DNA from: Anaerolineales bacterium
GTDB taxonomy: Bacteria; Chloroflexota; Anaerolineae; Anaerolineales; UBA4823
DNA length: 6,515 nucleotides
NCBI GenBank assembly: GCA_016932955.1
Contig: JAFGBV010000100.1
Span: 1-6,515 of the forward strand
Direction of reading: 5' to 3'
In this document: in pieces, positions 2,668 through 6,515 of the stretch
Numbering within the stretch: position 1 is the stretch's first letter
How the letters are laid out: each line of letters opens with the position of its first letter
The notes under the pieces: generated by a model
Seen by the model: the letters and a program-made list of their open reading frames with translations, nothing else
Told to the model about the DNA's origin: nothing
Database searches by the model: none
Program-made: the position numbers and the translations under genes

Positions 2668-3606
2668 TCAGTCCCTGGCTTGCTGCCTGAGCGATGCTAC
2701 GTAGATCCCAAACAAGATCAGCACACCCCCGGCGATCTTGAGCCAGGTAGGAGTTTCGCGCAGCAGAAAATAAGCCAAAATCGTGGAGCCGATCGGCTCT
2801 CCGAGCAAAGTGATCGATACATACGTCGCCGGCAGGTATCCCAGCGCCCAGTTGAACGTCGAGTGGCCGATCAACTGCGGAATGAGTGCCAGCAGGACAA
2901 ACCAGAGATATGTCTGCGGCGGGTAACCCCAAGGCCTGAGCCCTGCCGCAAACATGATGACCACCAGTACGATGGCTGCCATGCCATACACCAGAAATAT
3001 ATAACCGACCAGCGATATGTTCGCCCGCAGCCGGCGCCCAATGAGCATATAGCTGGCCGCGGCCAGCGCCCCAGCGATAGCCAGCAAGTCTCCCACGAAT
3101 GCCTTGCCGCGTACGAACTGACCCAGGTCAGGGCAGGCAAGAACGCCTGATTGCCAGGTGCAGCTATCACTCAAGCCCACGATAGTCCCCCCAGCAAGTG
3201 CCAGCAGCATGCCGATCAGGATCGTGCGGGTGATACGCTCGTGTACCGTGATCGGGGAGAGCAAAGCCACCCACAGCGGTGTGGTCGAGACGAGCACAAC
3301 CGACGACGCCACCGAAGTGTACTCGAGCGAAGTGATCCAGGTAGCAAAATGGATTGCCAGAAAAATCCCCGAAAGCAGCGCCAGCCCTATTTGCTTGCGC
3401 GAAAGGGCAGCCAGCTCCGCCCGGCGTCGGCTGAGTGCCAGCGGTGCCAGGACAAGACTGGCAATGCTCAACCGCCATGCCGCAATCACCAGCGAAGACG
3501 CCTCCTCTTGGGCATAGCGAATGAAGATCGATGCAGTGGATACTGCCAGTATGCCAAAGGCAATTGCCAATTGTGGGGGAACACGGGGGTGTCTATCTGC
3601 GTTCAT
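2668..3606 (-). CDS. EamA/DMT-superfamily permease, 10 membrane helices
   Basis: This is a predicted inner-membrane transporter of the drug/metabolite family; the substrate is unknown. I start it at ATG 3604-3606 because that codon forms an ATGA overlap with the stop of the preceding protease gene. The longer start at 3633 would add nine polar residues (MACATPTLS) inside that gene. The 312-residue product has two EamA repeats, about residues 14-144 and 172-304, each with around five hydrophobic helices. Typical repeat ends are visible: STTPLWVALLSP at 107-118 and LLGEPIGSTILAYFLLRE at 267-284, the latter with the glutamate usual in EamA proteins. The loop between the repeats (about 146-170) is extended and holds two cysteines, Cys149 and Cys158. 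Translational coupling to sodX suggests co-expression with Ni-SOD, but EamA proteins are too varied to infer nickel or oxidant transport from position alone. Confidence 0.92.
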   Translation of the reverse strand: MNADRHPRVPPQLAIAFGILAVSTASIFIRYAQEEASSLVIAAWRLSIASLVLAPLALSRRRAELAALSRKQIGLALLSGIFLAIHFATWITSLEYTSVASSVVLVSTTPLWVALLSPITVHERITRTILIGMLLALAGGTIVGLSDSCTWQSGVLACPDLGQFVRGKAFVGDLLAIAGALAAASYMLIGRRLRANISLVGYIFLVYGMAAIVLVVIMFAAGLRPWGYPPQTYLWFVLLALIPQLIGHSTFNWALGYLPATYVSITLLGEPIGSTILAYFLLRETPTWLKIAGGVLILFGIYVASLRQQARD

Positions 3607-3908
3607 GCTGAGCGTGGGCGTCGCACATGCCAAATGACCCTGCCCAGCACAGATCCACTGGAGATTGCACCGAATTCACGGCTGTCCACGCTGGATGGGT
3701 GGGTGCCGAGTACAAATAGATTGCCGCTGGCAGGTTCTACCTCGTTAATTCGTTTGATCATCAGCCCATAGGCTGGATGCCGGAAGGCAATCGTATCGCC
3801 TTTTCTTGGAGGAATGAAAAAAAAGGGGATTTTGCTGATCATCACAAAATCCCCTTCTTGGTATTCTGGGGTCAGGCTTTGGCCTGTGATTCTGAGTACC
3901 CGGAGCAT
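3603..3908 (-). CDS. sodX: Nickel-type superoxide dismutase maturation protease (S26 family)
   Basis: This small serine protease should remove the leader of the Ni-SOD precursor encoded just upstream, exposing the His-Cys nickel hook. The 101-residue protein has the signal-peptidase I layout in miniature. GQSLTP at 9-14 provides the nucleophile Ser11, EGDFVMI at 18-24 follows, RKGDTIAF at 35-42 is the next strand, and Lys52-Arg53 provides the general base Lys52. A final GSVLGRVIWHVRRP strand is at 85-98. It lacks the N-terminal membrane helix of LepB, as expected for a soluble maturation enzyme. Its ATG overlaps the sodN stop as TAATG, and its TGA overlaps the next ATG. No independent Shine-Dalgarno is needed if translation reinitiates. 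Position next to sodN and the short length favour SodX over a general signal peptidase. Confidence 0.94.
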   Translation of the reverse strand: MLRVLRITGQSLTPEYQEGDFVMISKIPFFFIPPRKGDTIAFRHPAYGLMIKRINEVEPASGNLFVLGTHPSSVDSREFGAISSGSVLGRVIWHVRRPRSA

Positions 3909-4408
3909 TATAGCACAGGGTAAACCAGCTCCAATGCGGGTGCGTAGGGAGCCTTGGCGCGCTTGGTGGCAATGCCTTTGGCGTCCCAGAAGATCTGCGC
4001 GAACTCGTTCACTGCTTCTACGAATTGCACGGCGGTCTCGCGGTCGGTGGTCTGGCGCACTTTCGAGCCAAGCTGCATCAGCTTGTGCACCAGCTCGTGA
4101 GTGTTGGGGTGCTTTTCCAGGTGCTGGGCTTTGAGAAAATCCCCCCAGATCACGCGCACCTCAGCCTTGGCTTTTTCAGCGTGCTCTTCCTTAACCGTGA
4201 TGTAGCGTACCATGCTGTTGTGGTAATCCAGGCTCTTTTCGCTGCCTTTTGCTTCGAGGTCTTTCATCAGATCGATCATCCGTACTACTGTGAGCGCAGA
4301 GATCTGCGCAACGATCGGATCGTAAATTCCGCAGGGGATGTCGCAGTGTGCTTTAGCGCGCGGAAAGTGAAAAGATTGATCTAGCATGGTTAAGAATTGA
4401 TGGAACAT
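3908..4408 (-). CDS. sodN: Nickel-containing superoxide dismutase precursor
   Basis: This enzyme dismutates superoxide to oxygen and hydrogen peroxide at a nickel site formed by the mature N-terminus. The 166-residue precursor has a 20-residue leader ending RAKA, then the nickel hook HCDIPCGIYDP at 21-31. After cleavage His1, Cys2 and Cys6 are the ligands, with the conserved Asp3, Pro5 and Tyr9 also present. The helical-bundle body keeps the family segments IWGDFLK (87-93), HLEKHPNTHELV (96-107) and IFWDAK (139-144). About 20 residues follow (ATKRAKAPYAPALELVYPVL), beyond where I recall the Streptomyces enzyme ending. The second-shell Glu17 and Arg47 of that enzyme appear to be Ser and His here. 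The start is fixed by AGGAGG seven bases upstream. It is the first gene of the minus-strand run and overlaps sodX by one base. Confidence 0.97.
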   Translation of the reverse strand: MFHQFLTMLDQSFHFPRAKAHCDIPCGIYDPIVAQISALTVVRMIDLMKDLEAKGSEKSLDYHNSMVRYITVKEEHAEKAKAEVRVIWGDFLKAQHLEKHPNTHELVHKLMQLGSKVRQTTDRETAVQFVEAVNEFAQIFWDAKGIATKRAKAPYAPALELVYPVL

Positions 4409-4844: not shown

Positions 4845-4873
4845 TTGACGGAATCGAACAATTGTTCTATAAT
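4845..4873 (+). promoter_or_regulatory. Strong sigma-70/A-type promoter of the radical-SAM operon
   Basis: TTGACG (4845-4850) and a perfect TATAAT (4868-4873) are separated by exactly 17 bases. Only one base of twelve departs from consensus. Transcription would start near 4880, giving a leader of about 50 bases before the ATG at 4930. Such a strong promoter normally needs a repressor to control it, and a palindrome fills its spacer. Confidence 0.85.
4855..4868. promoter_or_regulatory. Probable LexA/DinR-type SOS box inside the promoter spacer
   Basis: The 14 bases CGAACAATTGTTCT contain a perfect 12-base palindrome, GAAC-AATT-GTTC (4856-4867). Compared with the Bacillus subtilis LexA (DinR) consensus CGAACRNRYGTTYC, 12 of 14 positions agree; the mismatches are the eighth and last bases. 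It sits wholly between the -35 and -10 hexamers and touches the first base of the -10, the classic place for LexA to block RNA polymerase. Whether the host LexA uses this motif is not shown here. Another repressor with a GAAC half-site could bind instead. Confidence 0.6.
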
Positions 4874-4916: not shown

Positions 4917-4924
4917 AGGAGAGG
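4917..4924 (+). promoter_or_regulatory. Ribosome binding site of the radical-SAM gene
   Basis: AGGAGAGG lies five bases before the ATG at 4930 and supports that codon as the start, so the non-conserved N-terminal extension of about 20 residues is probably really made. Confidence 0.8.
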
Positions 4925-4929
4925 TAACA

Positions 4930-5631
4930 ATGGCTTCTGCTACTAATCAATCATCCCTCTCAGCTGCCCCCATCCCCCACTCAGACCTGCCTGCTGTGTT
5001 GAACATCGCCGCAACCTGCCTCGCAACAAGAGCCCTAGGACCTGGTCTCCGCAGTGTCGTTTGGGTACAGGGATGTCCATTTCATTGTCAGGATTGCATC
5101 TCCCCCCAATGGATACCGATCCGTCCCAATATCCTGATTACACCCCGCGAGCTCGCTCCTGGGTTGCTCAGCCATCCGGATGTATCCGGTCTCACCATCA
5201 GCGGTGGCGAGCCATTCCTGCAAGCCAAACAATTAGCCGAGTTAATTCGCATCATTCGTAATGAAAGGAATCTCAATGTGATCTGTTACACCGGTTTTTT
5301 GCTCAGCCAGCTCAGTAAGATGCCTGTTGGCAGCGGAGTCTCAGATCTCCTCTCTCAAATTGACGTACTCATCGATGGACCATATATTGCGAGCCAAAAC
5401 GACAATCGTGGCCTACGTGGTTCTTCTAATCAAACGATTCACCATCTCACCACTCGGATAAATGAGGTTGATTTTGAAAATCAGCCTCGCCAGGCTGAAA
5501 TCTATGTCCGTAATGGATCCGTATGGGTTGTTGGAGTTCCTCCAATAGGTGTCGGTTTTAATATCCTGAATGGGATCAGAAAGGCAGAAAAAGATGTCAG
5601 GACACAAGCACACCACAGTGTCTATCTCTGA
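4930..5631 (+). CDS. NrdG-like radical-SAM (4Fe-4S single-cluster) protein, substrate unknown
   Basis: The 233-residue protein belongs to the radical-SAM activating-enzyme group and should cleave S-adenosylmethionine at a 4Fe-4S cluster to make a 5'-deoxyadenosyl radical. The cluster motif C-x3-C-x2-C is Cys49, Cys53 and Cys56 in VQGCPFHCQDCISP. The SAM-binding motif ISGGEPFLQ is at 90-98, YTG at 120-122, and DGPY at 149-152. It opens with about 20 poorly conserved residues and ends with a tail of roughly 45 residues rich in V and G (EIYVRNGSVWVVGVPP at 190-205), so it is longer than NrdG as I know it (around 150-175 residues). No nrdD or other recognisable glycyl-radical enzyme lies in the window, which argues against a housekeeping NrdG. 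Its own promoter carries a LexA-like box. It overlaps the next gene by 38 bases, so they are probably one operon. The target may be a protein encoded further downstream. Confidence 0.88.
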   Translation: MASATNQSSLSAAPIPHSDLPAVLNIAATCLATRALGPGLRSVVWVQGCPFHCQDCISPQWIPIRPNILITPRELAPGLLSHPDVSGLTISGGEPFLQAKQLAELIRIIRNERNLNVICYTGFLLSQLSKMPVGSGVSDLLSQIDVLIDGPYIASQNDNRGLRGSSNQTIHHLTTRINEVDFENQPRQAEIYVRNGSVWVVGVPPIGVGFNILNGIRKAEKDVRTQAHHSVYL

Positions 5632-6515
5632 GGAGGAATATCGCCGCTTGCATGAAACGGAAATACAGCTCCGTTTCCTCAATTCAGAGCTACCCGGTAT
5701 GGTGGAAAAGGCTAGCATTCAGACGCGTGCCAGTCTTCAAGCCTATGTACATGATCTGGAGCAGCGACAAATGGATTATCTCGATACATTCGATGGTGTG
5801 AACCAGAGCCTGCTCGATCTCGAAATCCAAACCAGCCAGGCAATCCTGGATCAACAGCAACAAATCCAGGCTCAAATGGATTCCCTTGCCGGTGATTTAT
5901 GGCAACACACCAGCGAAGCCCTTTCCAATGTTGAGCAGGCTTACTGGTCGCACATTGAAACCATCTCCTCACTGCATAGAGACGAGTTGCAATGGCTGGC
6001 AGACCAATACAATCAGGCGAGTTCCCGAGATCAACAGAAAATGGATTTCGCGCACCAATGGCTAGAGATGGTCAATCGTATGTTCGCATCAATTACAAGT
6101 ATCTATGACCATCAACGCTATCTGCCTGGCGCAATGAAGAAAATCCAGGCTCGCATTGCTCAGGCTGATTTGACATACCAACAATCCATTCCAGAAACCA
6201 CACTTGCACTCACCCAGGCGATCTTTCTCGACCTTTCAGAGATTAGGGTGACTCTCGAAAAGAGGCAGCTCCAGTTCCACACCTTGCTCCAAGCAGCCTC
6301 ACAGTATGCATCCCGCCTGGAGAAGAAAGCGCATAAATATACACAAATCTCAGCCATGGATTTACAAGGGCATCCTTTGCCCTTACTCCTCGATGTCAAT
6401 TATTGGGTTAAAGGTGCCTTTCATGACCTCACCCGTAGGATTGAAACCCTCCGCGCTGAATTAAGTGAAAATCCTCAGCACTTTTCCATCGCTGAACTCC
6501 AAGATATCCTGGAAA
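5594..6515 (+). CDS. Predicted coiled-coil/alpha-helical protein of unknown function, C-terminus beyond the window
   Basis: I do not recognise this family. From ATG 5594 the frame stays open for 307 residues to the window edge. The N-terminus VSISEEEYRRLHE (9-21) is followed by long glutamine- and charge-rich stretches with heptad-like hydrophobic spacing, strongest at about 13-135 and 205-250. The segment from 85 to 96 (LDQQQQIQAQMD) is nearly all polar. There are no cysteines and no membrane segment or signal peptide, suggesting a cytosolic elongated or scaffold-like protein. The ATG has only a weak upstream AAGG and lies inside the radical-SAM gene, fitting translational coupling. An in-frame TTG at 5648 sits 11 bases after a strong GAGGAGG and is an alternative, but it would remove the ISEEEYRRL segment. 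Base composition is far less GC-rich than ftsK. An effector or sensor partner of the radical-SAM protein is a guess. Confidence 0.8.
   Translation, partial: MSGHKHTTVSISEEEYRRLHETEIQLRFLNSELPGMVEKASIQTRASLQAYVHDLEQRQMDYLDTFDGVNQSLLDLEIQTSQAILDQQQQIQAQMDSLAGDLWQHTSEALSNVEQAYWSHIETISSLHRDELQWLADQYNQASSRDQQKMDFAHQWLEMVNRMFASITSIYDHQRYLPGAMKKIQARIAQADLTYQQSIPETTLALTQAIFLDLSEIRVTLEKRQLQFHTLLQAASQYASRLEKKAHKYTQISAMDLQGHPLPLLLDVNYWVKGAFHDLTRRIETLRAELSENPQHFSIAELQDILE

Follow-up and report, generated by a model that had tools for sequence, protein, structure and literature searches.

A LexA-type box in the promoter of a radical-SAM operon of Anaerolineales points to control by the SOS response

The promoter of a radical-SAM operon in an Anaerolineales bacterium contains a palindrome that resembles a LexA operator, which raises the question of whether this operon is switched on by DNA damage. 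The stretch of DNA that we analysed (6,515 nucleotides of contig JAFGBV010000100.1, assembly GCA_016932955.1; hereafter the window) encodes on its minus strand FtsK, NUDIX and EamA proteins, a signal-peptidase-like gene and a nickel superoxide dismutase, and a 521-base intergenic region separates these from the plus-strand operon. At 3603-4408, the nickel superoxide dismutase scores 164.4 bits (cut-off 90) and the maturation-protease-like gene 51.9 bits (below its cut-off of 63.25), and a -35/-10-like site lies on the minus strand at 4570-4542, away from the LexA box. The window FtsK shares 64% identity with its counterparts in the relatives G002 and G377, the best two of 396 genomes searched in the class of G002, and EamA-like and NUDIX-like genes are also seen by eye near the operon of G414. 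The features of the operon are as follows.

4845..4850, plus strand: -35 hexamer TTGACG (direct reading and promoter scan)
4856..4867, plus strand: predicted LexA box GAACAATTGTTC, in the spacer and abutting the -10; matches the sites upstream of lexA in relatives and recurs in orthologous promoters
4868..4873, plus strand: -10 hexamer TATAAT (direct reading and promoter scan)
4917..4924, plus strand: Shine-Dalgarno-like AGGAGAGG (by eye)
4930..5631, plus strand: NrdG-like radical-SAM protein, 233 aa, CxxxCxxC at residues 49-56 (Pfam Fer4_12, E 7e-32)
5594..6515, plus strand: coiled-coil protein starting MSGHK, truncated by the window end (coiled coil read from the sequence by eye)

The first-pass annotation had described a TTGACG-N17-TATAAT promoter with a LexA-like palindrome exactly filling its spacer. 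The promoter is present at 4845-4873 with a spacer of 17 bases (4851-4867), both by direct reading and in a promoter scan of a 527-base region (11/12 hexamer matches), and GAACAATTGTTC is a perfect palindrome of 12 bases; it lies inside the spacer as described, but occupies only the last 12 of the 17 bases rather than filling them. The predicted operator thus overlaps the promoter. Because the scanned region holds three promoter-like sites against a shuffle average of 1.2, the promoter match carries little weight by itself. The LexA consensus of Bacillus subtilis is CGAACRNRYGTTCG, and on recounting we obtain the agreement claimed earlier, 12/14 positions. The pattern GAACNNNNGTTC occurs once in the 6,515 bases (expected 0.04) and at least once in 9 of 200 shuffled window sequences.

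The search of host-type lexA and recA promoters for the motif, which the first-pass annotation had proposed, was run in relatives. We collected lexA loci from three sets, namely 10 Chloroflexota genomes that have radical-SAM relatives, 60 genomes belonging to the class (lexA match in 54, best-scoring 30 loci used) and 13 operon-bearing genomes. These gave 53 loci, of which one with less than 150 nt upstream was dropped. Within 350 nt upstream of lexA, the exact GAACN4GTTC is found at 48 of the 52 testable loci and an exact or one-mismatch box at 51; the exact form is missing at four, and G010 has neither form within this distance. GACA-like bases precede and TAT-like bases follow 49 of these boxes, judging from base composition, so that at lexA, too, the box seems usually to sit between the two promoter hexamers. 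We observe a weaker picture upstream of recA (best-scoring 30 of the matches, L150-L179), with the exact box in 2/30, a one-mismatch box in 14 more, and the variant GAAC-N4-GTGC in 11/30. With a symmetrised matrix made from the 52 lexA sites only, the window box scores 20.0 bits, against a median of 19.2 for the lexA sites and 6.1 for the runner-up site in the window; its score equals or exceeds that of 40/52 lexA sites. Over 270,444 positions in 15 operon loci, the same matrix returns 11 sites of at least 13 bits, 8 of which precede the radical-SAM gene.

A lexA gene is present in 12 of 13 operon-bearing relatives and also in G002, G004 and G005, and we infer one in the genome of the window as well; the LexA of Dehalococcoides has reportedly been studied. 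It is improbable that the box is instead bound by another repressor sharing the LexA motif, for example a LexA paralogue, in which case the trigger would not be the classical SOS signal. Some genomes of the class do have two or three lexA-family matches, and G666 carries the box, yet no lexA match was found there at E 1e-20 (genome completeness not given); against this, the motif likewise stands upstream of lexA in operon-bearing genomes, and G002 and G414 have a single lexA match each at the thresholds used.

Conservation of the box in orthologous operon promoters was the other point on which the earlier reading had been made to depend, and here too the outcome is favorable. The radical-SAM alignment A1 (E 1e-60) yields 16 loci, spread over 15 of the 301 genomes searched in the order; adding L021 (G005) and the window gives a set of 18 close orthologues, 14 of them with a box in the promoter. 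The box is exact in seven (window, G002, G005, G414, G583 [two], G666, and G629), with those of G666 and G629 identical to the window 12-mer, and has one mismatch in seven (G004, G281, G641, G602, G662, G566, and G643). No box is found in the promoters of the remaining four, namely the two apparent sisters G377 and G663, G401, and the second copy in G414. In both sisters lexA does carry an exact box, and G401, a Hsp70-like variant in which the radical-SAM gene is internal, has only one-mismatch sites, one within the ORF as called and one 438 nt upstream. The second G414 copy (L252, contig C38) lies with a short coiled-coil-like gene amid recombinase- and primase-looking genes, as seen by eye, and has no exact LexA-type box in 18 kb.

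Across the same loci, an exact box lies within 250 nt upstream of 7/16 radical-SAM genes and of 1/175 other ORFs (Fisher P = 5e-8; without the window 6/15, P = 6e-7), and an exact or one-mismatch box upstream of 13/16 and 21/175, respectively; the count of 16 omits G602 and the second G414 copy, and the ORFs are mechanical calls rather than annotated genes. When the 14 box-bearing promoters, window included, are aligned on the box, a hexamer starting with TA follows immediately 3' in 12, and mean information reaches 1.30 bits for the box and 1.03 bits for the -10, against 0.04 to 0.10 for the flanks. The rows were picked for having a box, so that the box value comes partly from selection, whereas the -10 was not selected; G602 carries the box twice (the upstream one was used), and G643 has a better TATAAT upstream of its box. 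Since the flanks are unconserved, the box has not been retained merely through recent descent. A chance origin of the palindrome in an AT-rich promoter, as its occasional appearance in shuffles might suggest, is hardly credible in view of its recurrence before orthologues with unconserved flanks and its near absence upstream of other ORFs.

G002 offers an independent instance, since its operon is split, with the radical-SAM and AAA genes at one locus and the coiled-coil gene at another, and each promoter has its own box. The detached coiled-coil protein is 26% identical to that of the window over 291 aa (E 6e-21). The 6.8-Mb genome contains 21 GAACRNNYGTTC sites, compared with 12 for a reversed-pattern control, several of them inside ORFs; they include one each at the radical-SAM promoter, lexA, and the detached coiled-coil gene. 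In G281, the deviation GAAA-N4-GTTC is common to lexA and the operon, but G566 contradicts this, with GAAA-N4-GTTC at the operon and the exact GAAC form at lexA, so that covariation of the half-sites is at most a hint. Elsewhere in G002 and G414, the gene of a similar membrane-like protein (L186 and L248; by eye) follows an exact box plus another box-like site and is possibly a further SOS gene, and overlapping boxes GAACGAACGTTCGTTC mark the beginning of a TetR-like gene (L192 in G002, L237 in G414; by eye). At greater evolutionary distance, exact boxes are lacking from the 3-kb loci of eight further radical-SAM relatives in the class. In a set of 80 relatives spanning many phyla, an exact box lies within 300 nt of the match only in L007 and L021 (one-mismatch box in 9 more), so that LexA-type control looks confined to this lineage.

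As far as sequence comparison across relatives can tell, the motif is that of the lexA upstream site, it lies within the promoter, it recurs before orthologues, and it has an independent counterpart in G002. Because the palindrome matches the LexA site expected from relatives and recurs before related clusters, the cluster is very probably damage-induced, and the SOS control of the radical-SAM operon proposed in the first-pass annotation is supported by the lexA motif of relatives and by the orthologous promoters; we regard LexA control as highly probable. It is established that LexA represses its promoters and that damage releases them through RecA-stimulated cleavage of LexA. Here, a LexA dimer bound to the palindrome would occupy the spacer as far as the -10 and exclude RNA polymerase from the near-consensus promoter. 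Once DNA is damaged, LexA would cleave itself under stimulation by RecA, and the freed promoter would turn on the radical-SAM, coiled-coil, and AAA+ genes.

Regarding the proteins that would be induced, the first gene product has C49, C53, and C56 of its CxxxCxxC invariant in 32 sequences and is on this motif assigned to the radical-SAM superfamily; its best-scoring orthologue in the order of G002 is that of G414 (61% identical). The coiled-coil protein has no Pfam family at E 0.001, is 39% identical over 291 aa to the second gene product of the G414 operon, and has a conserved MSG start. Gene 3, past the window end, codes in relatives for an AAA+ protein that has two AAA modules with Walker motifs, and its N-terminal 300 residues resemble in fold an additional AAA module that lacks the P-loop and aligns with the AAA modules of the proteasomal ATPase, Vps4, and p97. 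Proteins of these kinds are widespread; at E 1e-3, radical-SAM relatives number 4,563 and AAA relatives at least 7,989, distant families included in both.

Convergent to gene 3, we observe by eye in the ORF lists an SPFH-like/SPFH-like/TPR operon in seven of the loci examined (L021, L182, L229, L230, L231, L233, and L234), and G002 also has two convergent genes positioned like the SPFH-like pair. Similarity to SPFH/Band-7 and TPR families is weak (E 8e-4 to 0.09, under Pfam cut-offs, in the two loci scanned), and hydrophobic stretches seen by eye suggest that these proteins are located in the membrane. None of 8 upstream regions of the convergent operon has an exact box and only L231 has a one-mismatch site (L235, among the 8, may belong to another gene set); these regions often read TTGAC...TATACTG. 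The putatively damage-inducible proteins may join membrane-bound partners made without LexA control, forming an AAA+ remodelling machine in which the radical-SAM enzyme would modify a partner protein, with a role in defence or damage survival.

A defence role is suggested by the patchy spread across the order (15 of 301 genomes), by the copy within a mobile-looking region (by eye), and by the G583 copy, which has a type IIG restriction enzyme and a PDC-S27 candidate in its neighbourhood; we consider it plausible, at somewhat less than even chances. Damage-linked envelope or protein quality control, which is compatible with the SOS reading and does not involve invaders, is about as likely: the AAA modules together with the degenerate N-terminal region, as well as the SPFH-like and TPR partners beside the operon, fit such a role, and PADLOC matches the scanned operon proteins only to generic AAA or coiled-coil models or, weakly, to radical-SAM ones. 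Predicted LexA control supplies a trigger that can be tested for a radical-SAM/AAA+ gene set without a name, and it directs attention to the LexA operator of a large Chloroflexota lineage known mostly from metagenomes. Should the operon indeed respond to damage, its function is to be sought under phage attack or genotoxic stress, and the placement of a LexA-gated half next to a membrane half that lacks such gating would hint at how the system stays harmless until it is required.

With respect to known systems, the literature matches listed (titles and abstract openings, with subscription literature mostly outside) include no published SOS control of such an operon and no LexA motif for this lineage, and the radical-SAM/AAA+ operon would be a new member of the LexA regulon. 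The predicted box has the palindrome, spacing, and promoter-overlapping position expected of a repressor site from the GAAC-N4-GTTC-type LexA operators of B. subtilis and Mycobacterium tuberculosis, as described in PMC3323433, and differs from them in lying in Chloroflexota, upstream of a radical-SAM/AAA+ operon. The closest named radical-SAM family is NrdG, the anaerobic ribonucleotide reductase activase, which has the CxxxCxxC in common with the window protein; unlike NrdG, the latter falls below the NCBIfam cut-off (90.1 versus 126.1 bits), and no reductase gene was recognised in the operon. A further comparison is with the MoxR-vWA ternary and related NTP-dependent conflict systems, which PMC7159879 reports in Chloroflexi among others and in which AAA+ remodellers have partners or effectors including Band-7, TPR, and coiled-coil proteins and, in one subtype, a radical-SAM domain. 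These partners are shared with the operon described here, the AAA matches of which are, unlike those of MoxR-vWA systems, to PF00004 with AAA_lid_6; vWA is absent among the matches listed for the compact-operon proteins scanned (in one table, the best 25 of 41), and the words SOS and LexA do not occur in the main text of PMC7159879. We tentatively suggest for this Chloroflexota order, with slightly less confidence than we give to either function above, a two-part machine unlike a named one, in which an ungated SPFH/SPFH/TPR membrane base is joined after DNA damage by a LexA-gated radical-SAM/coiled-coil/AAA+ part and which may serve damage-triggered defence or a decision on cell fate.
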